From Diadophis punctatus similis (Eukaryota; Chordata; Lepidosauria; Squamata; Dipsadidae): 64,000 nt of DNA. The translations under genes and the position numbers were made by a program. Below the pieces are notes generated by a model. The model made no database searches. It had not been told where the DNA came from and saw only the letters and a program-made list of their open reading frames with translations. Where the stretch lies: the NCBI GenBank assembly GCA_023053685.1, contig JALIGW010000003.1, positions 141,233,008-141,297,007 of the forward strand, given 5' to 3'. Shown here piece by piece: positions 25,683-64,000 of the stretch (position 1 is the stretch's first letter; every line of letters starts with the position of its first letter).

Positions 25683-26466
25683 ACGGTACATATATATTAC
25701 CTCTGACATTACTTTATTAACACATATTAGAAGAACACAAGAACATCAGCAAATTTTACTTCTAAAGCAGGCAACAAAGAATAAACTTATACTAAAGCAT
25801 ACCTGTTTTCTAAACTCATATTGATTTACATTATTTTACAGTAAGCCTCGCTTCTACTTCCCATAATGAATTATGGGAATTATAGTTTGGCTTCAATGCT
25901 GTAAATGTTCTGTTAATGATCCATGAACTTTCATCAGGAGTAGCTTTCATGACAAGCTGAGTCTGTCATACCAGTGTGTTCCACACTACTGTTACCAGTC
26001 CTCTTTTGCCTTTTAGTCACTCTAGTATGTATACTGAGGTAAGTAATGTGACACCTTTCGGATATTTAGGACTAGATCTACAAACTCTTTCTTTTTATTA
26101 GTCATGGTAACTGCAAGTGAGCACCGTTGACATTAAAGATATATAAAGAATTCCAAATGGCTTGCTTCTGAATGGTAGCTTTAAATCAAAACTCAACTAA
26201 TCAAAATTGTTAATGATGTTGGAATGTGACTTTTCACATCATTTCTGAAAGAAAAAAAATGTATAGGGAGATAAAGATACATACAGAGAAAGCCTGGGGA
26301 ACTGGGCCTATGAACCTTTGTTTAGTTAAAACAATGGTTCATAGGTTTTTAGTTAAATCTAAGAAAAAATAATGCTTTTACCCTCTCCTTGGAGGACTTG
26401 TATATAAAAGATTGCACATTTCAGTTTCTCTATCATGTTGGTTGGAATAAATATATGACTACTTAC
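24860..26466 (-). other. DCDC2 intron 1 of the coding region
   Basis: A 1.6-kb intron with GT donor at 26466 and AG acceptor at 24860 on the minus strand. It contains a (GT)n microsatellite and a hairpin-like TTCCCATAATGAATTATGGG near 25857. No transposon was recognised. Confidence 0.75.
25611..25680 (+). repeat. (TG)n microsatellite
   Basis: About 35 TG units inside a DCDC2 intron. The overlapping frames of valine/cysteine repeats are not coding. Confidence 0.97.
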
Positions 26467-26789
26467 TTTAGTTTTTTGAAAGCTTCTCTGCCACCAGCAA
26501 CGTAGTGCTCTCCACTTTGAATCTCATCTAGCTGACGAATGCGATGTCCACCACGGGGTGTATAAATATTCCGCACAGCTCCAAAAGGAGCATTCACACC
26601 ACCTGTCACTTCCTTTAGAAAGACATCAAAACTGGAAACCTTCTTCTCATGGATAACAACACGCCGGCCGGGGAAGAAAGGGTCTCCATTGCGATACACC
26701 ATCACACTCTTTACCACAGGTTGTGACAGACATGTTGGCTTGGCACTGGGACTACTCATAGCCGTCTTTGCACTCTGCTGTCCTGGGTC
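26467..26789 (-). CDS. DCDC2: DCDC2, first coding exon (gene partial in window)
   Basis: DCDC2 is a microtubule-associated protein of cilia with two tandem doublecortin domains. The ATG is at 26759-26757. The 97 encoded residues start MSSPSAKPTCLSQPVV and include VYRNGDPFFPGRRVVIHEKK and GAVRNIYTPRGGHRIRQLD, the first doublecortin domain. It ends AFKKL plus two bases of the next codon, at a GTAAGT donor. An acceptor (ACCAACAG) lies 30 bases before the ATG, so an upstream non-coding exon is expected. Length and phase agree with human exon structure as I recall it. Only two coding exons are seen; the second doublecortin domain and the tail must lie further left or outside. Gene order with MRS2 supports orthology. 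Confidence 0.96.
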
Positions 26790-28497
26790 CTGTTGGTAAT
26801 TAACACAGTGGTTTGCAAACCTGTAGGTTTAAGAAGAATATAATTTATTTTCTTTCACTGTTTTTCTCTGACAATTATCTTTGAATTCCAGTTTTGCAAT
26901 ATAGGCACTGCATACACATCTACAGCATGACTGGCACGCCAGAGCAACTGCCAATAGTATTTCTATTTCTAAAAAAACAGGGAGGCTCTTAAAGTCTCCC
27001 AAAGGTTTTAGTTCCATAACAGTTCAGAGAGTCCTTCTGCTAGGCAACCAATTCTTGCCAGTCTCTTAAGAATAGTAAAGTCATCACGATTTCCTTCTCC
27101 TACATATTCATTCAAAGCAGAAATGTTTATTGCATAGAGTAAAAAAACCACATTCCTCCCTAACTCTGCTGTTATGGAAGCCCCAGAAAACCCACTTTTA
27201 AAAATATTTCAATTAAGTATCACATCTTCACTCCTTTTTTTTTGTTCATTCTGTTCTGTTTTCCTTATCTTCTTCACTTAAAAAATAAATAGTCATGAAG
27301 TGGCTGTCTAAATGAGCCTATCATGAAATTCAGAGGATAAAGGAAGTGTTTATTATCAAATATTAAAAGGCATGCGTAATTTACAGTAATTTTAAGAGCA
27401 GCTAGCAGAAGCACAAAAAGAAATGGCAGAATATAGAAAAACCATATAGGGTCAATAGTTGGGAGGTTGCAAAAGTTATTTAGAAAATGTTCATATTAAA
27501 ATGGAAAGTTTTCAATGGAATAAAAAGTTGAATGAGATATTAGCAGTCTTTACTGCTTCTACTGAAGAGATTAAACAATAAGCAGAGAGGGAAAATTTTA
27601 AAAGTGATTTCAATTATACAATTCACCTATACTGAAGTTAAAGGGTACCATGGTTCCCAGCATGTTAAAATGCCACTCCCAAAATTGATAATAATTATTA
27701 TTGAGAAGAAAAGTTTTTGCCTATACTGTTATCAAATTATATTAGCAGAAAGGGGTGCTTTTTTTTTACAAAGAGAAGCATTAAAAATTATGAGTCCCCT
27801 ACATATAACCCTCCAAATTTATCATACACTGAATCACCTCAAGATCACCACATTTCATTCCTCTGTCCTTTGGTTTAAAGGTACCGGTATGTGGCTATAG
27901 TTTCACTCCATTTTGGCCCATTTCATTCATTCAGTTTTTGTCCTCCACCACCTGAGTAAGGTAAGAAGGAAAACAGAGGACCCCAACCTGCTAGTCCAAA
28001 CTTCTGTCTACTTGTTGCAAATATGTGTCCTACATACATCACACAGACACAGACCTAAGTGTACACCAGGCCTAAGGCTGCTTTGGTGTTAACTACAGTA
28101 TTATTATATTTTCAGCATGATCCAACCACCAAGAAATTGATTTCTTTCTTCTTCTTCTTCCTTCTTCCTTCCTCCTTTCCTCCTTCATTCCTTTCCTTTC
28201 CTTTCCTTTCCTTCCTTCCTTCCCTCCCTCCCTCCCTTTCTCTCTCACACACACATCACATGCACACACAAAAACACACTTTTCTCCCTCATATATCTGC
28301 CAAGAGGCTTTTTGCATTTCACCACCACCACCAATTGTGTTCACTTGGAACTTGATCCCAAAGGAGAGAACTTTTTGCCTGGGGACTGAAAGCAACTCTG
28401 CCGTTTCCGCCCACGAGCTACCGTAACTGTCAATGTAGGAGAAAAGAGGCGGCTTTCCATCCAGCGTAGACCACGCCGTCGACTTGCAGAGCCAGGC
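26790..28497 (-). other. DCDC2 5' UTR intron (inferred)
   Basis: It runs from the acceptor before the ATG exon to a GTAAGT donor at 28503-28498 on the minus strand. It contains the polypyrimidine tract at 28138-28247. No gene is seen in it. Confidence 0.45.
28138..28247 (+). repeat. Polypyrimidine tract with (CA)n edge
   Basis: About 105 bases of C/T in CTT, CCTT and CCCT units, followed by CACACA. It lies within 300 bp of the CpG-rich DCDC2 5' block. Confidence 0.92.
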
Positions 28498-31631: not shown

Positions 31632-33552
31632 GACTAGGCTATGCCCGAGGGAGGGGTCAAACACTTCATCAGTCTCTAGTCCCTTCACGCCAAGAGATCT
31701 ATCGAAAGTCCAGCCCACCTTGAATTCCATTGACTCTTATCTACTGCCTATTTGCTTTAACCATTAGTAGCTCAGATTTTTGTAAAGAGCTTCAATTTAA
31801 TTTAATTTCATTAAAAGTTCTTATAGGCCGCCCAATCCCGTAGGACTTCAAGCTCTGTCATTACCTAGGGCTTCTCTATTTGTTTGAGTGGAATCACCCA
31901 CTCAGAAAATCAGTCAGATAAGTTCTGCATAACAATTCTGTGCATGACAGGGAAAAAATATGGAATATCGTACAATATCTTCAGATAGCTATGGTAGGAA
32001 CTTTCATCTTGAAAGGTCAGAGTTTTTTCCCCATGCTCAGTCTTAAGTCTTTGCTAATAGAAATTTTATTGAATTTTATTAAGAAATCAAAGGGTTATTG
32101 GCAATTTTCCAATGTTTTGGTTCGTATTTTTCTTGTGGGTCAATAATGTGCTTTCCTTTCATTTTATGAGAAATGGTTGGATTGCAGAATGAGGAAGTAG
32201 GAGAGGAGGAGGTTAAAGTCATTTTGCTGACATGCAACATAGCTGACACACAAAAGACGTGATACACAAACAAGATGATCCAAATAAGTGTGAGACAGTG
32301 TTGTGGAATGTTATCTATAAGAAGTTATTAGTGAACCGAATGTGATCTCATAGTTAAATTTTAGCTGAGGAAAGGTCAAATATAGGCAACCTTTCATAAC
32401 ATTGTGACTGCTAAAGCGATAGCATGTCCAGCTGTGGAAGTGGACTCAGAAAGAGAGTAAAAAAATAGACATTTTTCAAATTAAGGATTTGGAGGTAGTC
32501 CATGGACTACAAAACAACCAATCAATCAACTCTGGATCATTGCTCCTTTGTAACAGCTATCAACAAAAAGAATCTCACATATTGTACTTTGGGAAAGATA
32601 TGAGCAGAACACAGATTAGGAAAAAATAATTGCACTTGGCAAGACTGAGAGAAGCACTGTACAATGGCAATGGCTAACAGATAGATGGGATCAAATAGGA
32701 AATATATGAATTTTTAGTTAAAACAGGTCAGAATGGTGTATAAAATCATCATATGTAAAAACACCATATGTAAAACATGACTCAATGAAACACAGAATTG
32801 AAGAAGCTCCTTGGATAAGAAGCGAAACATCTTCAAGGTAAAACAAGGTCCAGTTGCCTTTTGAAAAAGCACCTTTGGGACAATCATGATCTGGATGACT
32901 GAGAATTTCCATAGAGACTCAGTAGAACCTAAGAAATGAGCACTTCTAATTCATTAAGATGTTTCGGGAAGAAAGGCAAGCATAGTACTTTTCTACCTTC
33001 TGAAGCAGCAAACTCCAGACTTTAAAAGACTATTAAAACATGGATCATCCATGGGCTAGTGGGAGTTGGGGCGGACTGTTTGTTGCTATCTGTGCTGGTG
33101 GTGGTGAGCTCCACTCCTTTTTATTAAAGAGGTTTTCAACCAAATATAAACAGTACAAATGTTAAGTTAAAGTAAGATGACTAAAGAAAAAAAAGTAAAA
33201 AAGAAATAAAAAGAAAAATAGAAAACATTTTTTCCTTTTTTTCAGCAAAAAGTTGACAAGGGAATTTATTGGTTTGAATGTTAGATTGTCAGAATAGTTG
33301 GGTGATCTAGCAAATTAATACATTGTTAATGTATTTTTATTGCTTTTTAAAAGACAAAAAAGGAAAAAATACAAAGATAATTATGATAAGAGTACATACA
33401 TTGTCAAATAAAAGAAAGAAAACGCATAGAACGTGCTTTAAAAAAATTACAACAAAGGGGAAAAAAAGTATATCATTTTAAAAGTAAATAGTTACAATTC
33501 TATATATGTGTATATAATAGTGCATATAATTTTTTGCTGATAAATGAAAATA
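31632..33552. other. Intergenic stretch with repeat pieces
   Basis: 31792-31850 has AATTTAATTTAATT followed by GGCCGCCCAATCCCGTAGGA, a LINE-tail-like block also seen inverted at 21369. 32780-32930 has a widespread vertebrate repeat signature (GAAGCTCCTTGGATAAGAAG, GAAACATCTTCAAGG) that recurs reversed at 40617-40720. No host gene was seen. Confidence 0.4.
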
Positions 33553-33613
33553 AAGGGAGACTATTATAGATCTATTTCGAGCTATTTTGCTCTCGTCAGA
33601 TAGCCATACCCTT
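33553..33613 (-). ncRNA. Candidate type I hammerhead ribozyme
   Basis: Read on the minus strand, the core CUGACGA (33599-33593) and GAAA (33578-33575) flank stem II GAGC/GCUC with a six-base loop. Stem III is AUA/UAU closed by GAUC. The cleavage triplet is AUA, with the cut expected between 33565 and 33564. Stem I is GGCUAU with AUAGUC (one G-U pair), extended past a small internal loop by AAGGG with CCCUU. All invariant hammerhead core positions (C3, U4, G5, A6, G8, A9, G12, A13, A14, A15.1-U16.1, H17) are as required. Activity is not shown. No second copy was seen in the window. Confidence 0.75.
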
Positions 33614-33678
33614 AGTGGGAATTGAACCTGGGCAGTCTGCTTGTAAGGCAGCAGTTTTAACCTCTAGGCCACAAGGTT
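33608..33678 (-). repeat. tRNA-like SINE head upstream of the ribozyme
   Basis: The minus strand has A-box-like TGGCCTAGAGG and B-box-like GGTTCAATTCC at normal tRNA spacing. The anticodon arm CTGC-CTTACAA-GCAG has a seven-base loop, like tRNA-Val(UAC). The acceptor arms CCTT and AAGG can pair. It is too mismatched to be a working tRNA gene. The hammerhead follows directly, sharing AAGGG, so both may belong to one Pol III-driven retroelement. Confidence 0.7.
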
Positions 33679-33699
33679 CTCTTCCCTATCAGCTCTTCA

Positions 33700-36180
33700 C
33701 CAGGAAAGGGTTATATATGTTTATTCTGTCGAGTCATCCTGGTGTATGGAAGGAAATATATTGTACGTATATATTTTTAATATTTATATGACTATCAAAA
33801 CCTATTGTATTTTGTATTAATGAATCCTATGTTTTATTATACTTGTCCATATAAAATCTACATCTATTGGCAATTCACTCATAGAGGAATATTTTTTTTA
33901 AAAAAATGGATGAATTATACTTTTAACCTTTTTTGCAGCTTTCTTATGTATATTTCAAAAGTCCTCATATTGTAACTCCGCATTTAGCAACACTGATTAT
34001 AACACTATGCTAACTAAAATTAAAAGCTAAATTATTCTGAATACAAAAAGATTATTCATGCTTTAAAAAAATTATAGCTTATGCATTCAAACACTCAATA
34101 TTATAAATGAAAGTTCCTCCTCCTCTCTGAATAAAGTTTGCAATGTTTATTTTATTCATTTATTGAATTTATATTGCCACCTATTCGCCCATGGCGACTC
34201 AATATAATATTATCAATATAATGGACAGTTCAAAATCAACTTAAGATTTTGACTTCAATGGACCTTTCTGGTACTCCAAGTTGGATAAGTGATTTTCAAG
34301 AAATACATCATTAACCAAGTTTCAAAATTAATATCAAATCAGCTGAGATTATCTGGGCTCTAAAGCTAAGAAACATCAGGCCTGGGTACTATGATGAAGG
34401 AAGACCACCATGGCCCACCAGGGTTCTAGGTTAGGTTGGGAAGTTTAGAACACATCCCCAAGAAAACTCACGGGAAGCCAATTCCATTTTGTTACCCAAA
34501 GAAATCCCCCAATTTGAATGTTGATTAAGCCACAAGATAGGTTTTTACAAAGTCTGAAAACTTTGTTTGCATATCTATCTTTTTTTAAAAAAAAACAGTC
34601 CTGATTTCAAAGCAGATGATGATAAAAGCACTCAAGAATTTTTCCTTTCTTTTTATCTCAGCATTCAGGAAAGAAAATAAACTCTCCCCTGCTGTGAGCT
34701 ACAAAGAAGATAGTTAACCATTACCAAAAAAGTAATTTGGTGTAAAGCAGCTTTTGATGTACTGCAGTTACTGGTTAACACTAGTTGTGTTTTTCAATTT
34801 AGTCCTAAATTAATACATATGAAAGTGGAGCATTATCATTTCATCTACAAATTCCTTACGTGTGTGCTTTTTAATTTTATATGATTTATTGTTTTTTTAG
34901 TCAGTGGGACAAATAGCAATGTTTAAAGGTTTGTGCTGCTGGACTCAATGGCTCCGAACTAGCTCTGAGAAATATTTAGACAAAGATACCATTTGTTCAC
35001 ATTATTCCATAATTAATATCCATAAAAATACTGCTAAGGAACATGTCCCAGTTTGATCCATGCTTTGTTTCCAATCAACCTATAAGCTGTGGGGAGGAAA
35101 AGTTTTGCCACATAGACAAAAAGTTATTTGGTTTTGATAGTGCTAATCACTATACAGTGCTCAGCTTTAGTTTTGGAATTGTCTGTACGGTGATATATAG
35201 AATACCAGTAGTATCTAATACAGTTGAAAACCAGGAATTGCTGTTCCCTTATAGTTGTTTATAAATAAATCCACTTTCCATTTATATAAATGTTATAATA
35301 TTTATATACATTTCTTAAATATATAAAGGTTATGTCAATTATAGTCCTTGTTCATGCTCTTTATCTCAAGTTTGAAAATAGCTTATAATGTAAAACTTGG
35401 AAAGCAAGAAATAGTATTTAAATATCTAAAAATAGTTAATCTATTAAAATCAAATCAATTTTAAGTTACCTAAAGTAAAATCAGTTTTGCCTGATAAACG
35501 CAACCATTTCGAGATTTTACACATACATACAGCCACACCACACATCACTGCCATGAATATATTGCATTAACAGGTGTATCTACGTACAGCCACGGTTAAG
35601 TTTCATTTGAATATTATTGCTTCAGAATGTAATGCCACTAGCAGTAGCTTCTCAGTGACTTGTATGTTGAGAAGTAATGTTTAAACTGCTGTGCTGCAAA
35701 CTTGTTCTGAATATGTTTGTTGTGGAGTTTGCAAGAAGTTGCCCCAGTGCCCCCTAAGAGCTTCAATATACCTAAATGAAAGTAAACTTTAGCAAAATAA
35801 TTATGCTGTTTTATTTCTAAATATATACACTTTTCTAGGGGTATATTTAAGAAGATCAATATTATAAAAAAACAGCCCAGATCACAAAACCAATACAATC
35901 TTAAGACTATGAAAAGAAAAGAAATAATCATTCTTCCTCTAATAATACAGAATTATTGCAATCTAACACAGGTTTAAGTTCCAGCCACTGGACAAAGAGA
36001 TAAGAGGCAGGAGTGGCTCCAAAATGGGGTTTCCTACTCCTTTTTTATTCATCTGTGGGACAGTGAATGAAACAAGAACACCAAAAGTACAGAGTACCAA
36101 TGCACAATGTTGTTTATGAAAGAAATGTAGGATTGTTGTTGAAACTAAATTGTGTATGTGTGTTAAAAAGTAATTTGGCT
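33700..36180. other. AT-rich intergenic stretch
   Basis: No gene is recognised. A 5S-like SINE remnant lies at 34340-34440. The 73-codon frame at 35043 and the 97-codon frame at 35638 (reverse) match nothing I know and show no coding signal. Confidence 0.35.
34340..34440 (+). repeat. 5S rRNA-like SINE remnant
   Basis: GCTCTAAAGCTAAG, CAGGCCTGGGTACTATGATG and GGAAGACCACCATGG follow the order of the 5S rRNA internal promoter region (GAAGCTAAGCAG, GGGCCTGGTTAGTAC, TTGGATGGGAGACC). It is strongly diverged. Compare 41417-41505. Confidence 0.45.
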
Positions 36181-44200: not shown

Positions 44201-47200
44201 GCTTTTAGTTATTTGGAAAACTTTTGAAATTATTACACATGGCAAATTGAAGTAACATATTTATTTAGAAATGCACAGGTACAGTATATGTGGTACCTTG
44301 CTCAACAGTAGTGACTGTGAGATGGACCTTGGAGTCCTAGTGGACAACCATTTAAATATGAGCCAGCAGTGTGCAGTAGCTGCCAAAAAAGCCAACACAG
44401 TTCTAGGCTGCATTAACAGAGGGATAGAATCAAGATCACGTGAAGTGTTAATACCACTTGATAATGCCTTGGTAAGGCCACACTTGGAATACTGCATACA
44501 GTTTTGGTCGCCACGATGCAAAAAGGATGTTGAGACTCTAGAAAGAGTGCAGAGAAGAGCAACAAAGATGATTAGGGGGCTGGAGGCTAAAACATGAAGA
44601 ACGGTTGCAGGAACTGGGTATGTCTAGTTTAATGAAAAGAAGGACTAGGGGAGACATGATAGCAGTGTTCCAATATCTCAGGGGTTGCCACAAAGAAGAC
44701 GGAGTCAAACTATTCTCCAGAGCACCTGAGGGTAGAACAAGAAGCAATGGGTGGAAACTAATCAAGGAGAGAAGCGACTTAGAACTAAGGAGAAATTTCC
44801 TGACAGTTAGAACAATTAATCAGTGGAACGGCTTGCCTCCAGAAGTTGTGAATGCTCCAACACTGGAAGTTTTAAAGAAGATGTTGGATAACCATTTGTC
44901 TGAAGTAGTGTAGGGTTTCCTGCCTAAGCAGGGGGTTGGACTAGAAGACCTCCAAGGTCCCTTCCAACTCTGTTATTCTATTCTATTCTATTTTCCTTTA
45001 TTTACTGATAAGTAAAATATTGTTTACCTCCTCCTTCTCCCCAAAGTCTTCCAAACCACCTTGCATATAATCAGTAAAAGGAGTTTCTGCCTTTTGGTTT
45101 GTGCAGTACCCGTGTTTCAGAAAAGATTGGACTGGGAGATGAGGTGAGGTGAAGCAGACTCAGGAGCCAATTCTTAAAGTTGAATTGTACCACTTAAAAT
45201 GCCAAAACATGATGGAAATGGGAGAGAAAGAGCACAGTAGAGATGAGCCAATAAAAAAGCTCTAGATTGTGTCAAAGAGACCTAGGCTCATATTTTTATT
45301 TTGTCAAGGAGCCTTGTAGAAAATCTTGAGACAGTCTTTTTTTCGCCTAATCTACTTCAGAGAATATGTGATAGGAGAACTCGGGGGAAAGATGGAATCA
45401 GTACAATAAAAAAGAGCAACTAGGTTGAATGAGCAAAACTCAAAAAAAGATAGAAACAAAAAAATAAAAATAGGAGACAGTTTGAAGTTCAGGACCGTGG
45501 CAATAAAGAAAACAAAACACAAGTCATATGCAGGACACTCCAATCTTGGCCACTTTAAGACTTGTGGACTTCAACTCCCAGAATTCCTCAGCCAGCAAGC
45601 TGAGAACTCTGGGAGTTGAAGTCCACAAGTCTTAAAGTGGCCAAGGTTGGAGAGCCCTGATATAAAGCACCATCACTGAAACAGCCCAGAATTTTACACC
45701 TATTTGCTTTGGAGGAAATCCGAGAGTCGGAGTAATCACACATAGTCAAGAAATCCTGATTGCTTTTTTAAAAAGTTTTTTCATCTTAATGCTAACAACC
45801 CAAAGGATATGTTAGACAAGTCTGTTTGGGGATGTAGTTAGACAGTATTAGTGTAACAACTGAAGAAAACATAACAAGTATTGAGTGTTGGCTAATTTTC
45901 TTCTCTGCTTCTTTTAGTTTTTGAAGGCTGTGATAACACCAGAGTATCTTCTAATCCTAGACTATCGCAATACAAATCTGGAAAAATGGCTGTTCCAAGA
46001 ACTGGCATCTCAGCTAGCTGGAGAAGGTCAACTAGTTACATATTCTTTGCCTTTTGAATTCAGAGCTATAGAAGCAATGCTGCAGTATTGGGTGAGCATG
46101 CTTATGCTGTGCGGAGAGTGATTGTTGTGACCTTTCCCAGCTGGAGCTCTCTGGACATGGTGAACTCCAAATCCCAAAAGATCCGAGACTTTTAAAGTCC
46201 AACATATATGGAGTAGCAATAGCAGTAGGACTTAGACTTATATACTGCTTCATAGTGCTTTACAGCCCTCTCTAAGCGGTTTACAGAGTTCAGCATATTG
46301 CCCCCAACAATCTGGGTGCTCATTTTACCCACCTCGGAAGGATGGAAGGCTGAGTCAACCTTGAGCCTAGTGAGATTTGAACAGCTGAACTGCTGAACTG
46401 CAGTGCTACACTTTAACCACTGCGCCACCTCGGCTCCATTTGGGACATATTTATCTGCCTCCTTCAACAAATGATTATAATCATTTGTTGAAGGAGGCAG
46501 ATAAATTTAGATATAGACCACCATTGAACCCAAAGTTTCCATTGCTAACCGAGACAGTTAAGAGAGTTTTGCCCCCTTTTTATGACCCTTCTTGCCGCAG
46601 TTGTTAAGTGAATCACTGCAGTTGCTTAAGTTAGGAACACGGTTGTAAAGTGAATCTGGCTTCCCCGTTGATTTTGTTTGTCAGAAAGTTATAAAAAGTG
46701 ATCACATAACCCATAACCATATTGCAGATCACATATGAGTCAGTTGCCAAGCATCCAAATTTTGATTTCGTGACCACAGGGATACTGCAATGGTCGTAAG
46801 TGTGAAAAACAGTCGTAAGTCACTTTTTTTCAGCACTGTCGTAACTTCAAATGGTCACTAAATGAATAGTTATAACTTGTACTTGTACGGTACTTGTATG
46901 AGATGGCTAAAAGGCAGTCCTTTTCTATAAGTTACTTCAAATGGCCATCCTTATTTATTTATTTTGTATGAGCCACGATGGTGCAATGGTTAGAGTGCAG
47001 TACTGCAGGCTACTTCAGCTGACTGCTAGCTGCAGTTCAGCTGTTCAAATCTCACCAGGCTCAAGGTTGACTCAGCCTTCCATCCTTCTGAGGTGGGTAA
47101 AATGAGGACCCAGATTGTTGGGGCTAATATGCTGAACTCTGTAAACCGCTTAGAGAGGGCTGTAACAAAGCACTGTGAAGCGGTATGTAAGTCTAAGTGC

Positions 47201-50200
47201 TATTGCTATTGCTACTTAAAAATTGTGTTTCTGAGCTAGTTTCCTGACAACTTCTGTAATTAGTGTAAAGCAAAAAAAAAAAAAATCAAAGGAAATTGTG
47301 ATTTCTGTGCAAGGAAAGTGAAAAGGGCTGACCTGACCACAAGTGAAGATATTCTGGATTTTGTGTTTTTTTTTAAAAAAATCCCTTATTTTATGCAGTG
47401 TAAATTTGATATATACCGCAGTTATTACATACATATCCAATACAATATCATAATAACATTAAATTCACTATTTAAATCGGTAGTAATGAGAAATAATAAA
47501 AGACCTCAACCTGCATCACTATATAATGATAAGGTTGGTATAGGTTTATTTTTTGTAAGAGCCGAGGTGGCGCAGCGGTTAGAGGCAGGTACTGCAGGCC
47601 ACTTTAGCTGACACTGATCCGCAGGTCAGCGGTTCAAATCTCACCGGCTCAGGGTTGACTCAGCCTTCCATCCATCCGAGGTAGGTAAAATGAGGACCCA
47701 GATTGTTGGGGGCAATATAAATATACATTGCTTACTGGTGTAAACCGCTTAGAGAGTGCTTGCACTTTGAGGCGGTATATAAATTTCACAAAATAAATAA
47801 ATAAATAAATAAATTTCCAGTGGAAGGGTGTTCTGCATATATTTCAGCTTGCATTACCAACTTTGCTATAAGTTCAAGATCATATGTCTGTTTTGCTGGA
47901 CAAAAGGACTTTTTAGAAGGCATTCTAAAAGAATTATTTTAATTCTTATGAAGGATCATGTTGTTATCTAGATCAGCTACCTGAGTGGCAAATTTAGCCA
48001 TCTGCAACCTCAAATACTTGAAACTCTGAATGCTTTAGTGGATCCTAAGCTTTTGTCCCTGGATAGGAGTAAAGTCCATATCTTACTGCAAAATGGAAAG
48101 AGGTAAGCAAGTCTACCTTCACTCTCTTCAATTACCTTGTTTATGTAAGTTGCAGTAAGCCATTTTCTTGAATTATATAACAACTACACTACTTATTACA
48201 ACAAATTGCTTACATCAAATATTAGGCAGGGGGTAAAAGCACTGTAGATTGTTGTCTTGAATGCTGAATTGATTTGTTCAGTTCTACTTGATGCAGTTAA
48301 TATCTTTTTTGATTTAACAGTTTGGCATCACATGGTTGTGGAAATAAGACAATATAAATTATTACTGAAACAGATGAGTTGTTTGAGCCTGATATAAAAA
48401 TAAACTACCTAAATTTCTGTTTTTATTTTTATATTACAAGTCTATTAGCGTGACAAAGATAAATGTTTTGGTGCCTTTGAAAACTAAAAATTAACAGGAG
48501 CAGAAAATCAGATAATAGTCATTTTTAAAAGTCTTAAATAGAGCAGTTTGAAAGTGCTGCATTAATGTAATATAAATAATATTAATCTAATAGTTGCATA
48601 GCTATTATCGCTTAACCTTTTCTGCTACATTGGAGAGATGACCAGATTCTTACACATCCCGGCTAACCTATAAAGGCAAAGATGGTCTTTTGGATAGCAA
48701 CTTCATTACATATTAAATGAAAGATATTTTTGTATCTGTTAAACCAGATGACATATTCTTATTTCAGTGGCTTCATATAACACGAAGCTGCTGTAAATGT
48801 TTATGGATAGTGAGCATTCCTTTAAGCATAAATGATCCACATTATTGCTCAGCTGTGAAGAGATTTCAAGAATGACTTGCACTTTGGATTTTGACTTGAC
48901 CCAGAGAGAAGTCTTAACAGCAAGCCCATGTGTGCAAGCAGATCTTCAGAGAAATATTGGTTAATTTGAGAAACATGGTATGTTTTGCGATAGGTTTCTT
49001 ATGCTTTTATTTTTCAGTTTGTCCGAATTAGAAACTGACCTTAAAGTTTTCAAAGAGATGATATTGGAAATCCTAGATGACAAAGAAGTCATGGAAGAAC
49101 TGTGTCTGACTAAATGGACAGATCCAGAAGTATTGTAAGTATAAGTTGTAAAAGAGTGTTTCTGATGGTCCAAATTTCACTTCTTCCTAATTGCGAAATA
49201 TTCTAAATATTACATTCATAGTAGATGTCATTCAAGTGATAGTGATTCTCAGATTTTAAACGCTGCTAGAAAGCACTAAATAGAATGTGAATTTTCATTT
49301 ACTATTTTATTGCCACATACTATCACTATGGCTTCTGTTTGCAATGGGTCTTATGGTTATTGTTCACAGTGAGGCAAGTCTGTCTGGAATTGACCATGTG
49401 GAGGAGATGGAACTGCTGTTGGAAAATTACTACAAGCAGGCAGAAGATCTTATGAATGAAACCCGGGAACTTAAAATACTGATTGATGATTCTGAAAGTA
49501 TCATCTTTATCAACTTAGACAGGTTAGCTGTGTGGAACATATTGTTAAAATTTAACATACATTGTTTAAAACTCATTTGACATTTAGATTTTGAAAAACA
49601 GTTTTGTTTATAAAGCTTTTTCTCAGATGAAATGAATAAATTTATTTTGCATTCCTATAAATTATTTGGTTATTTTAATAAATTATATTGCTATGCACAT
49701 TCTATTGTCAGTGCTAACTTGACAAAGCCTGTTTTGGTTTTGATGAATTAATTTTTTGAATTAAGCTAATGGTTCTAGAGATGGACTGGTAGATTTCTGT
49801 CAATAATGAAAGCAACCTAATTGTAAGCTATTCTGGCTACATAAACTAACCTTTGTAACTGTAGAAAACTTTGTAGGCAAGTTAACCAGCATGTATGTCA
49901 GTTTGCCATTAGCATTGTGCCCATCTGCCATTTTTGTACATGTTCAAAAAAGTCAGCACCCAAATTTCCACAAAGTTAAGCTTGTGTTAGTCAGGTCTTC
50001 ACATATACAGTATCTTTAACAAGTTGCATAGCCGTTCCATTAACTCAGTGACTATTTAAAGTTACGATGGCACTGAAGGAATGGTAGTTATGGCCGAGCC
50101 TCACACCCAGCCTTACACCTGTTGCAGCACCCCTGTGATCACATGATCAAAATTTGGGTGCTTGGCAACCTATTACATTTATAACTGCAGGGTGTGCCAC

Positions 50201-53200
50201 CCACCCTCCATCTCTGCCCTTTTGGATACCCTGCACTCTGGCCACCCCTGCCCCCTTCTCCATCTCCTTTCTCTTGCCACAGAGGTGGTGTGCCTGCTGT
50301 GGCAGCTGCTGACCCTTTATAGGCCTCTCTGAGGTTTCAGGGAAGTCTCAGGGAGGCACAGCAGCTTTTTGGCTAGGCTCACCTCTTCTCAGCAGTGGGA
50401 AGAAGGTCAGCTGGAGACAACAGGGACAGCAGGGTGGCCAAAAGGGCAAGATAGGGCCTTCTGGGACCGTGTTTTTCAAACTTGGCAGTTTTAAGATGTG
50501 TGGACTGAGGACTTCTGGGAGTTGAAGTCTTAAAGGTGCCAAGCTTGAAAAACCCTCTTCTAGAGCAACAGTAGCATTAAATGGATAGTATCATAGGTTG
50601 GGCTAAACTACGTAACTGATGTTGGCTAGCGGTATATTTTTTTTAAAAAGAAACTGGTTATAGACTGGGTTGCTACTCCTAGAAGCAAGTAAGAAAGGGC
50701 GTCTTCTCTAAAGTTGTCTACATCTCTGAAGCAAATGTTAACGGTCACATTTAATCCTTCAATTTAGCAGAGTCGTGTTTTATCTTTTTAGCCACCGTAA
50801 TGTTATGATGAGGTTGAACTTGCAGCTGACGATGGGTACTTTTTCAATCTCGCTTTTCGGATTGATAGGAGTAGCATTTGGTATGAATTTGGAATCGTCA
50901 TTTGAAGAGGTGAGAAACAATACTGAAAACAACATTCCTAGATATTTTAGTAAAATATTCCAGTAAAGCCACAAAGGCTGCTTTTAATTGCATTGTTGCA
51001 TTAACTGGCTATTGGAACTTGACAATTCGTTGTTTAATAAATATCATGAGAGCATTGTTTCAGACTATTTATGCTCAAGCTATTTATGGTTTGCATTTTT
51101 CTTTATGGGATGAATAGCAGCCGTACTTGTTTTATGTCAGGTTGCATCAAAAGGCTGGTAATTCAACTTGGTGAAAGCTGCACTAGTGATCATAATAACC
51201 ATATCTGAACAAAAGCTGTCTTCATTAGCCAATCCTCTTTAAAGGGCAGAAAAAGTTTCTGCAAGGTCCAATGGAGTAAATGAGGAAAAAAGAGGAAGCT
51301 TAAAGCCGTTGTCTTTGTTTAATGAACCCCAATGGGAAGAAAAGGATCCATTGTATATGCCAGAGATCTGTTCACTTTCCATGTCATTCCCACGGTGTAT
51401 TAATTGCTACTTCTAGGTAAATAAATCTGATATCCTCAGTTAAGAGTCATTTTAAAAAATGCAGTAAGATTTAAAAACTAACGAAGGGTCTGAGGTGGGA
51501 ATTACTCATTGTATGCTCTTACCATATTAGAACCATGGAATGTTTTGGCTGGTGACAGGAATTATGTTCCTAGGCAGTGGCTTAATTTGGCGGCGCCTGC
51601 TTACATTTCTTGGGCGGCATCTAGAACCGTCAATGCTTCCAACAGTAAGTATGCTTTCACTATTACCACATTAAGCTACCTCATTCCTCCCCAACATTTT
51701 AGCTTAATTCTCATATGCAGGTATATCGGGAATAAAACCATCAACAAAACTCCATTTGAATCATGAGTATCGTATAATATTTTTCTAATATTTGATCAGA
51801 TTCTTGTCTTCCTGTAACTTCAGGGTGCTATTCCTTGTTCTGCATTCTGGGATTATAGAGGACAACTGTGATCTGATTTTTTGTGTTGACCTGGGAAGAG
51901 AACCATTCTGTATCTGTTGTATGGAAGAGGCTTAGTTTGTCATGTATCTTGCTGGAGAATTTGAATTTTAAGTACATGAGATCCAATGTTTTGTAATGGC
52001 TAAGATATTGGACTAGTACCAAGGAGACCCAGATTCAAATCCACTTTTAGCATAAAAACTTATTGGGTGATTTTGGCCTGGTCACCCTTTGTCACAGCTT
52101 CACCTATCTCACAGGGTTGTTATGGGGGGAAAATGAGAGGAGGGAATACACTACCTTAGCTCCTGAATAAAAGATGGGATATCAATAAAACAAACAGAAC
52201 AATGAATTATTGTTTATGCATACAAATCTATTTAAATAAATAAATAAATAAAATGTCTAGTTCTCGCCTCTGTATTTAGTCCAAGTGATGTAATCGATAA
52301 GCTTTATTCAGATCCTTACTTCTATTGCTTAGCTTTTTATTCTTGATAATGCTTGCAAGCATATTGATGATTAAAAATTATTTTGTATATGAGTATTCTT
52401 TACAATATGGCTTTGCTGCTGTGTCTACCTTAATTATGTCTTCCTCCTTTGATCACAGCACCATTTACTCTCTGAGACAACGCATCCTAATTTCAGGCAG
52501 AATTCTTAATAACAGCCAGAATAAACATATGCTTTCTGGCAGACTTTTGAAGGGAGGCTCCAATTTTATTTTTTAAAATTGGAGCCTCTTAAGTCCTTTC
52601 AGAGCTTATTTTGCTTAACAATGGTTATACACGGTTTAGCAGAGATGCACACAATTGATAAACCTCCATTTGATTCTGAGAACATATTTTAGGTATACAT
52701 AGTTGCTGTCTAAGGAACAAGCCAGATTTTCCCTTTGCACCTTAATTGGATATGACTTTACCCTTTCCAAGGTTACTATATTATATTTAGTGTTTGACAT
52801 ATTTTAAGCAAATAAATAGTGATATGCTGCCAATGTTCATAAGCAGTATAGATCAGGAGTGTCCACCTTGGCAACTTTAAGATCTCTGGACTTCAACTCC
52901 CAGAATGGGGAATTCTGGGAGTTGAAGTCTATAAGTCTTAAAATTGCCGAGGTTGGACATCCCTGGTATACGTAATGGATCAGCCCATTCTACATATGAG
53001 GTTGAAAGAGGTAAGTGTGGCTGTGCAAGTTAACTAGTGCAAACGACCTTCCTTTTGCTTACTTAAGCACAACACTAATTTCCCCACCGGTTTTCACAAT
53101 CCTCATTCTGTTATCTTTTCCTTCTTTAGATGCCGTCTTTATTGAAAAAAACACAGCCACCCAATGGAAAAGTAGAGTTTAAGAATGTTTTCAAAACAGA

Positions 53201-61709: not shown

Positions 61710-62373
61710 CAGTGATGGCGAACCTTTTTAGGTTCGTGTGCCAACAAGGGGGGGTGCGCGCGCTAGTGCGCACTCGCATACCCACACCCATTCCCTCCCC
61801 CCCACGCATGCGCACAACATCCCCCCATGCTGCCCCCTGCGCATGCGCACACACCCCCACCTCCGCGCAAAGGCCTTACCGGAGCCTGGGACGGTAAAAA
61901 ACGATGAAACGGGCAAACCGGAAGTTCGGAAAAATGTCCGGTTTGTCTGTTTCGTCGTTTTTTGCATTCCGGGGCTTCAGGGAGCTTCCCTGAATCCTCT
62001 GGAGTGCAAAAAACAGCTCACCGGCAAACCGGAAGTGCGTTTTTTTCGCACTTCCGGTTTGTCCGTTTTGTAGTTTTTTGCATTCCGGGGCTTCAGGGAG
62101 CTTCCCTGAATCCTCCGGAGTGCAAAAAACAGCTCACCGGCAAACCGGAAGTGCGTTTTTTTCGCACTTCTGGTTTGTCCGTTTTGTAGTTTTTTGCATT
62201 CCGGGGCTTCAGGGAGCTTCCCTGAACCCTCCGGAGTGCAAAAAACAGCTCACCGGCAAACCGGAAGTGCGAAAAAACGCACTTCCGGTTTGCCGGTGGG
62301 CAACGCTCGCGTGCCCTCCGCTATGGCTCCACGTGCCACCTGTGGCACGCATGCCATAGGTTCGCCACCACGG
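61710..62373. mobile_element. hAT-like element with perfect 8-bp duplication and tandem core
   Basis: It starts CAGTGATGGCGAACC and ends GGTTCGCCACCACGG, with GTCTAGAC on both sides. The centre holds three copies of a 116-bp unit (starting near 61958, 62074 and 62190) built from CGGCAAACCGGAAGTGCG and its inverse. GPLD1 intron. Confidence 0.95.
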
Positions 62374-62599
62374 GTCTAGACCTTTACCTATAGTAAAACA
62401 GGGAAGATGTGGCAAAATATAAAAGCACTAGTTAAGAGGAGAAGGAAGGAATGAAATCAGCAATAGGGGAGTATAAGACTAACACAGTGGGAAACCCCTA
62501 TATTGAATATATTACTGCGTATGGTCCCATATGGTCCCATTCATCTTCTGCAATAAGCATTGGAAAGTAGTTCAGAGTGTCCTCATCTTTGATTTGGAA

Positions 62600-64000
62600 T
62601 CCTTTACAAATCGGGTTTCAGGCGCGGCTACAGTACAGAAACTGCCTTGGTCGCTCTGATGGATGATCTCTGGCGAGCCCGGGATGGGGGAAATTCCTCC
62701 ATCCTGGTGCTACTTGACCTCTCAGCGGCTTTCGATACCATCGACCATGGTATCCTTCTGCATCGTCTCGGCGAGTTGGGAGTGGGAGGCACCGTTTTGC
62801 GGTGGTTCTCCTCTTATCTCGCCGATAGGATACAGTCAGTGTTAACAGGAGGGCAGAGATCGTCCCCTAGGCCCCTGTCATGCGGGGTGCCTCAGGGTTC
62901 AGTTCTCTCGTCCATCCTGTTTAACATTTACATGAAACCGCTGGGGGAGATCATCCGTAGACACGGGGTGAGTTTTCATCAGTACGCTGACGACACCCAG
63001 CTGTACATCACCACCCCGTCTCAATTCAGTGAGGCAGTTGATGTAATGTGCCGGTGCCTGGACGACGTTAGGACCTGGATGGGGAGGAACAGACTCAGAC
63101 TCAACCCCGACAAGACTGAGTGGCTTTGGATATTGCCTCCTAAGGACCATGACAACTGTCCCTCCTTGGTTCTCGAGGGAGGGAAATTAACTCCCTCGGA
63201 TCAGGTCCGCAATTTGGGGGTCCTCCTAGATCCACAGCTAAAATTGGATCATCATCCTACTGCTGTGGCTAGGGGGGCTTTTGCACAGGTTCGCCTGGTG
63301 CACCAATTACGGCCATACTTGGAGAAGGAGGCTCTACTCACGGTCACTCATGCCCTTGTCACCTCCCGTTTGGATTATTGCAATGCGCTCTACATGGGGC
63401 TACCCTTGAAGAGTATCCGGAGACTTCAGTTGGTGCAAAATGCGGCTGCGCGTGCTGTGGTGGGTGTGCCAAGGTACACCCACGTTACACCTATACTCCG
63501 CCAGCTGCATTGGTTGCCCATCGGTCTCCAGGTACAATTCAAGGTGTTGATCATCATCTTTAAAGCCCTTCATGGCTTAGGACCAGGCTATCTTCGGGAC
63601 CGCATTTTGCCTCATACTTCCCTTCGACCGGTTAGGGCCCACAGAGTTGGTCTCCTCCAGGTCCCGTCAGCCAAACAATGCCGGCTGGCGGGCCCTAGGG
63701 GGAGGGCCTTCTCTGTGGGGGGGGGGGCGTGCTCTGGAACCAACTTCCCCCAGAGACCCGAACTATCCCCACCCTGCTGGCCTTCCAAAAAGCCGTCAAG
63801 ACATGGCTTTTCCTGCAGGCAGGGGGTAGAGACTAGTCCATTTGAGCTCTCCCCTGGGTATGTCTGGTTGATGGATATTTTTTAAATATTTAATTTTTTT
63901 AACTTTTTAACTTGGTTTTTAATTAATGTTTATTTTCTAGTGTTCTTGTATATTGCTGTACGCCGCCCTGAGTCCCTCGGGAGTAGGGCGGCATATAAGA
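62600..64000 (+). mobile_element. CR1-clade LINE with open reverse-transcriptase frame
   Basis: 62647-63885 is open for 412 codons. It shows LVLLDLSAAFDTIDHGIL (RT motif A), GVPQGSVLSSILF (motif B) and YADDTQLY (catalytic motif, 62983-63006), then TSRLDYCNALYMGLP and LHWLPIGLQVQFK. A run of eleven G at 63717-63727 probably causes a frameshift, since the residues after it no longer fit the family. The 3' end CGCCGCCCTGAGTCCCTCGG with GGCGGCATATAAGA reaches the window edge. The copy is truncated at the 5' side and antisense to GPLD1. Confidence 0.88.

Follow-up and report, generated by a model that had tools for sequence, protein, structure and literature searches.

The minus strand of the window analyzed here (the whole stretch of DNA, 64,000 nucleotides) had been annotated from its letters as containing a complete hammerhead ribozyme fold near the gene MRS2. 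This raises the question of whether the likeness to a hammerhead is genuine and, if so, whether the ribozyme serves a neighboring gene or belongs to a mobile element. The evidence below suggests that the locus is probably a small mobile-element copy rather than a gene switch, because the apparently intact hammerhead sits immediately beside a degraded tRNA-like promoter.

The hammerhead fold and the adjoining tRNA-like head

We evaluated the proposed fold base by base and compared it with the type I hammerhead architecture. The first-pass annotation had placed the ribozyme on the minus strand with every conserved core base present and a cut between 33565 and 33564. Strand, coordinates, core and fold all hold, with standard pairs at 18 of the 18 paired positions (one of them G-U) and an exact core, and the predicted cleavage base, A17, falls at 33565 in agreement with the earlier cut position. 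The type I core elements CUGANGA, GAA-A and NUH are all present, and three stems surround the core in an arrangement open at stem I, of which stem III is missing from the MFE structure of the monomer. Loop II, AAAAUA, is one base apart from the Rfam consensus CAAAUA, and stem I contains an internal loop. The covariance-model search that the annotation had put forward as a check returned an end-to-end type I match (RF00163, model positions 1–45 of 45) at 26.6 bits, under the gathering score of 34; at gathering scores, an Rfam scan of the whole window gave 0 matches, the curated RF00163 threshold being missed.

Table 1. Features of the hammerhead and of the sequence adjoining it, in window coordinates.
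Feature	Position	Strand	Basis or size
Degenerate tRNA-like head, anticodon loop CUUACAA (anticodon UAC)	33607..33678	-	Rfam RF00005
Pol III A box TGGCCTAGAGG	33661..33671	-	strict pattern
Pol III B box GGTTCAATTCC	33618..33628	-	strict pattern
Type I hammerhead ribozyme including outer stem I	33553..33613	-	Rfam model, descriptor test, pair list
Outer stem I AAGGG/CCCUU	33613-33609 with 33557-33553	-	5 bp
Inner stem I GGCUAU/AUAGUC	33605-33600 with 33564-33559	-	6 bp
Core CUGACGA	33593..33599	-	core found at 33599, explicit pair list
Stem II GAGC/GCUC, loop AAAAUA	33579..33592	-	Rfam alignment and pair list
Stem II pairing	33592-33589 with 33582-33579	-	4 bp
GAA-A core segment	33578-33575	-	pair list
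Stem III AUA/UAU, GAUC loop	33575-33573 with 33568-33566	-	3 bp
Stem III perfect 10-nt palindrome AUAGAUCUAU	33566..33575	-	sequence
Predicted cleavage site, after A17 at 33565	33564..33565	-	core placement; cleavage predicted
First TTTT after head, possible Pol III terminator	33547..33550	-	sequence

Beyond what had been annotated, the locus contains a tRNA-like head abutting the ribozyme, a terminator-like T run, and a palindrome in stem III. The head aligns to RF00005 over model positions 1–71 of 71 at 19.8 bits, against a gathering score of 29, and has non-standard pairs at 1/7 positions in the acceptor, 2/4 in the D, 1/5 in the anticodon and 3/5 in the T stem. Such non-standard D and T pairs are usual for SINE heads. 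A functional tRNA gene was rejected on the grounds of these D and T pairs and of ARAGORN, which in its bacterial setting reported no tRNA gene at the head. As in a tRNA-derived SINE, the head carries both an A and a B box, its tRNA match being under the Rfam gathering score, and this strict A-box/B-box pair is the only one on either strand of the window, where 0.004 would be expected by chance (21 in 660 million simulated strand-bases). One base lies between the end of the tRNA match (33607) and the start of the Rfam hammerhead match (33605), and the TTTT begins two bases past outer stem I. The two boxes, together with a TTTT just behind the ribozyme, predict a Pol III RNA of about 134 nt, and the unit reads as a SINE-like hammerhead element similar in design to the schistosome Sm-alpha.

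Based on the sequence, the base pairs, the boxes and their adjacency, all of which are directly observed, we propose that the locus is one fairly well-preserved short non-autonomous retroelement, in which a tRNA-derived Pol III head leads straight into a type I hammerhead. We put the probability of this reading at roughly 0.7.

All that we conclude on the element is drawn from one copy in a 64-kb window. A second copy was found in the window neither by blastn, whose best match elsewhere is 16 bases long (E 0.03), nor by nhmmer with filters off and E up to 10, and the Rfam scan revealed no second hammerhead. The hammerhead is a single motif with no tandem array over it, unlike the repeats of non-LTR retrozymes. 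No flanking direct repeat of at least 8 bases is shared by 33718–33673 and 33575–33381; for the squamate SINE Squam3, the excerpted text describes a very low target-site duplication rate (PMC7983390). The ORF list contains no stop-to-stop ORF of at least 90 aa from 31736 to 35638. Pattern scans for relatives returned 0 in viral contigs, which says little because two patterns from repeats in the window, used as controls, also returned 0, and 0 in the contigs of bacterial and archaeal genomes, where no control pattern was run.

The window also contains repeats of other kinds. Two SINE copies of one type, which we take to be Sauria-type, lie at 46212–46440 (minus) and 47571–47690 (plus), and a further tRNA-like SINE head, presumably MIR/Squam3-like, lies at 51972–52091 (plus). 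The Sauria-type copy at 46212–46440 makes a squamate, perhaps a snake, the likely host. An inverted repeat at 46444–46507 adjoins the Sauria-type SINE and has a sub-gathering match to a miRNA family. A near-perfect inverted repeat at 45540–45650, which we assume may be a hAT-like miniature element, matches Rfam miRNA families on both strands, also sub-gathering. Finally, a tandem array at 61937–62271 (116-bp unit, 2.9 copies, 97% matches) ends some 320 bases before a 430-aa stop-to-stop ORF with a reverse transcriptase domain, RVT_1 (62593–63885, plus), which we take to be CR1-like.

Folding and fate of the predicted RNA

RNA folding had been suggested earlier as a second check, and for a single molecule it does not return the whole fold. 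The MFE structure of a 64-mer (-16.6 kcal/mol, versus -12.6 kcal/mol for the hammerhead fold) lacks stem III, the pair probabilities of which are 0.0. Because the Rfam consensus sequence is likewise without stem III in the same folding model, we regard this as weak evidence either way and dropped it as a test, although, as a model result, it runs against rather than favors our reading. The folding energy of a 77-mer is unremarkable (z -1.47), with 15 of 200 shuffles equally good.

When two copies are cofolded, the unconstrained MFE structure is exactly a double hammerhead, at -41.4 kcal/mol, which the prediction places 8.2 kcal/mol below two monomers. We evaluated the contribution of the palindrome by replacing the tetraloop with each of the 256 possible loops: with 32 of them, 8 or more of the 10 stem III pairs formed between molecules, 21 reached at least the same dimer gain, and 0 formed stem III of 3 bp in the MFE structure of the monomer. 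Since this many loops do as well, the palindrome is only suggestive, and weak evidence. By our own arithmetic, 8.2 kcal/mol corresponds to a dissociation constant of about 2 micromolar, and pairing of separate element RNAs in the cell is therefore doubtful as modeled. Outer stem I and the acceptor strand of the tRNA-like head share bases and are mutually exclusive. Forcing the acceptor helix raises the energy by about 8 kcal/mol (-26.6 versus -34.5) and leaves no outer stem I; thus the two folds compete and the one with outer stem I is favored.

From the boxes and the placement of the core we infer transcription and cleavage along the following lines. Pol III would start near 33680, continue through the ribozyme and stop at the TTTT (33550–33547). 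The hammerhead would cut the resulting RNA between 33565 and 33564. This would release an 18-nt 3' fragment with a U tail, and on the 5' side an RNA of about 116 nt would remain, at the 3' end of which a 2',3'-cyclic phosphate is expected. With a stem III both short and self-complementary, the RNA may be cut most efficiently when two element RNAs pair as a double hammerhead. The trimmed RNA could be circularized by a host tRNA ligase or, alternatively, be used by a helper reverse transcriptase, for which CR1, Bov-B and Penelope-like elements are candidates. As regards such mobility, hammerhead mutants of an Anolis Penelope-like element were unimpaired for insertion in vitro according to the excerpted report (PMC11167929), which counts against the reading proposed here.

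More tentatively, and with a probability that we judge to be about one in three, the locus could represent a vertebrate SINE family whose body is the ribozyme. In such a family the 3' end of the Pol III RNA would be made by self-cleavage instead of termination, perhaps between paired RNAs, with AAGGG switching between the acceptor helix and stem I. If true, a ribozyme-bodied SINE family would be the vertebrate counterpart of Sm-alpha.

Alternative origins of the locus

We considered whether the hammerhead could instead be a minimal ribozyme from a Penelope-like element (a pLTR fragment) that lies by chance beside a tRNA-derived SINE head, or was inserted next to it. Precedents exist: in the excerpted literature, the RNA of an Anolis Penelope-like element contains a hammerhead with protein-assisted cleavage (PMC11167929), and animal genomes contain scattered type I hammerheads of minimal form (PMC7761336). 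The minimal forms are, however, described in the available excerpts as being without helix III or loop contacts (PMC6155905, PMC7761336), whereas the present motif has a 3-bp stem III with a tetraloop and a stem I internal loop. In addition, a single base separates the tRNA match from the Rfam hammerhead match. Weak evidence in the same direction comes from a Pfam scan of 6 of the 105 listed ORFs, which yielded a single RVT_1 domain, 29 kb from the hammerhead, and no GIY-YIG domain among the six. Taken together, a Penelope origin appears unlikely.

The genomic neighborhood is relevant to a second alternative, namely that the hammerhead has been kept for a host function such as co-transcriptional cutting of an intergenic transcript upstream of MRS2. 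A Pfam scan placed an exon encoding a doublecortin domain at 26463–26828 of the minus strand, the gene being presumably DCDC2. On the plus strand, an exon was matched to MRS2, and a probable first coding exon, which we take to be that of MRS2, begins at about 38056. The element is thus intergenic, flanked by these two genes of opposite orientation. The earlier description of the ribozyme as "upstream of MRS2" is correct as to position; the strand is opposite to that of MRS2, nothing ties the two together, and regulation of MRS2 was set aside as unsupported. An intact core and intact stems would fit a retained host function, and conserved intronic hammerheads of amniotes are thought to have been domesticated (PMC6155905, excerpted). 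Against this, the present motif is intergenic and sits beside a Pol III head, and we consider a host function improbable.

The weakest alternative is that the likeness to a hammerhead is accidental. The Rfam E-value is 2.6e-4 for the local search (561 bases x 4227 families) and 0.03 in a permissive scan of the whole window. This value alone is not our argument, because 12 of the 36 matches in the permissive scan have a smaller E; all 12 are to miRNA families, and the two loci inspected among them are inverted repeats. We therefore also used a descriptor that demands the core together with stems I, II and III of at least 5, 4 and 3 pairs (strict) or 3, 3 and 2 pairs (relaxed), thresholds that were chosen post hoc with the motif already known. 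Its background was estimated in an order-1 Markov simulation with the dinucleotide composition of the window (730.88 million strand-bases). The strict descriptor has a single match in the window and none in the 730.88 Mb of simulated strand; the relaxed descriptor also matches once in the window, and its 16 simulated matches correspond to 0.0028 expected per window. A chance origin, in favor of which the sub-gathering score, the post hoc descriptor, the monomer MFE structure without stem III and the unremarkable folding energy speak, is highly improbable and was rejected in view of the local E-value, the simulation and the independent Pol III boxes that abut the hammerhead, as the first-pass annotation had anticipated in calling the joint occurrence very unlikely by chance.

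Relation to known hammerhead elements

The annotation knew of few vertebrate hammerheads, a view that is now outdated, as judged by excerpts of papers on axolotl, amniote introns and Anolis (PMC7229834, PMC6155905, PMC11167929). The axolotl genome is credited with 126,247 type I hammerhead motifs (PMC7229834), amniote introns, those of reptiles included, contain hammerhead motifs (PMC6155905), a Penelope-like element of Anolis carries one hammerhead (PMC11167929), and in Xenopus type I hammerheads are associated with repeats (PMC3088659). Vertebrate repeats with type I hammerheads are thus already known, and the present element adds to them. Among the literature matches listed, which leave key primary papers outside the search, we found no squamate SINE that combines a tRNA head with a hammerhead and, by title, no paper on snake genomic hammerheads.

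Should the junction of head and ribozyme recur genome-wide, it would provide a vertebrate lineage in which the roles of hammerheads in retrotransposition can be tested, including 3' end making, circularization and dimer cutting, and a possible source of the conserved amniote intronic hammerheads.

The known systems, compared here through excerpts of the cited papers, resemble the element in different respects. Compared by description only, the squamate SINEs Sauria (Squam1), Squam2 and Squam3 share a tRNA-derived head (PMC10702118, PMC7983390, PMC13295347), and the word "ribozyme" occurs 0 times in the main text of these three papers. Poseidon of Anolis, a Penelope-like element, is likewise a reptile retroelement with a hammerhead (PMC11167929). 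Metazoan non-LTR retrozymes, such as those of axolotl, share a type I hammerhead with a weak stem III and a palindromic loop (PMC7229834), but are tandem repeats of about 150–450 bp, whereas here a single copy has a Pol III head. In axolotl, one group of motifs with a weak helix III and a palindromic tetraloop is described as cleaving poorly in monomeric form, and for vertebrate motifs higher rates are said to depend on dimers (PMC7229834).

Similar in design are the SINE-like elements Sm-alpha and Sj-alpha of schistosomes, which encode hammerheads (PMC2770079, PMC8490949) and, like the element described here, unite a tRNA-related sequence and a type I hammerhead within one short non-coding unit. 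In S. mansoni, 2,342 of the 2,368 tRNA-Gln-TTG-like sequences were assigned to SINEs resembling Sm-alpha (PMC2770079). Their tRNA-related part is tRNA-Gln-like, whereas the head found here has the anticodon UAC; the likeness noted here is one of design. The two also differ in number: hammerhead candidates in two schistosomes amount to about 38,500 and 5,000 (PMC2770079, PMC8490949), compared with the one copy in this window.
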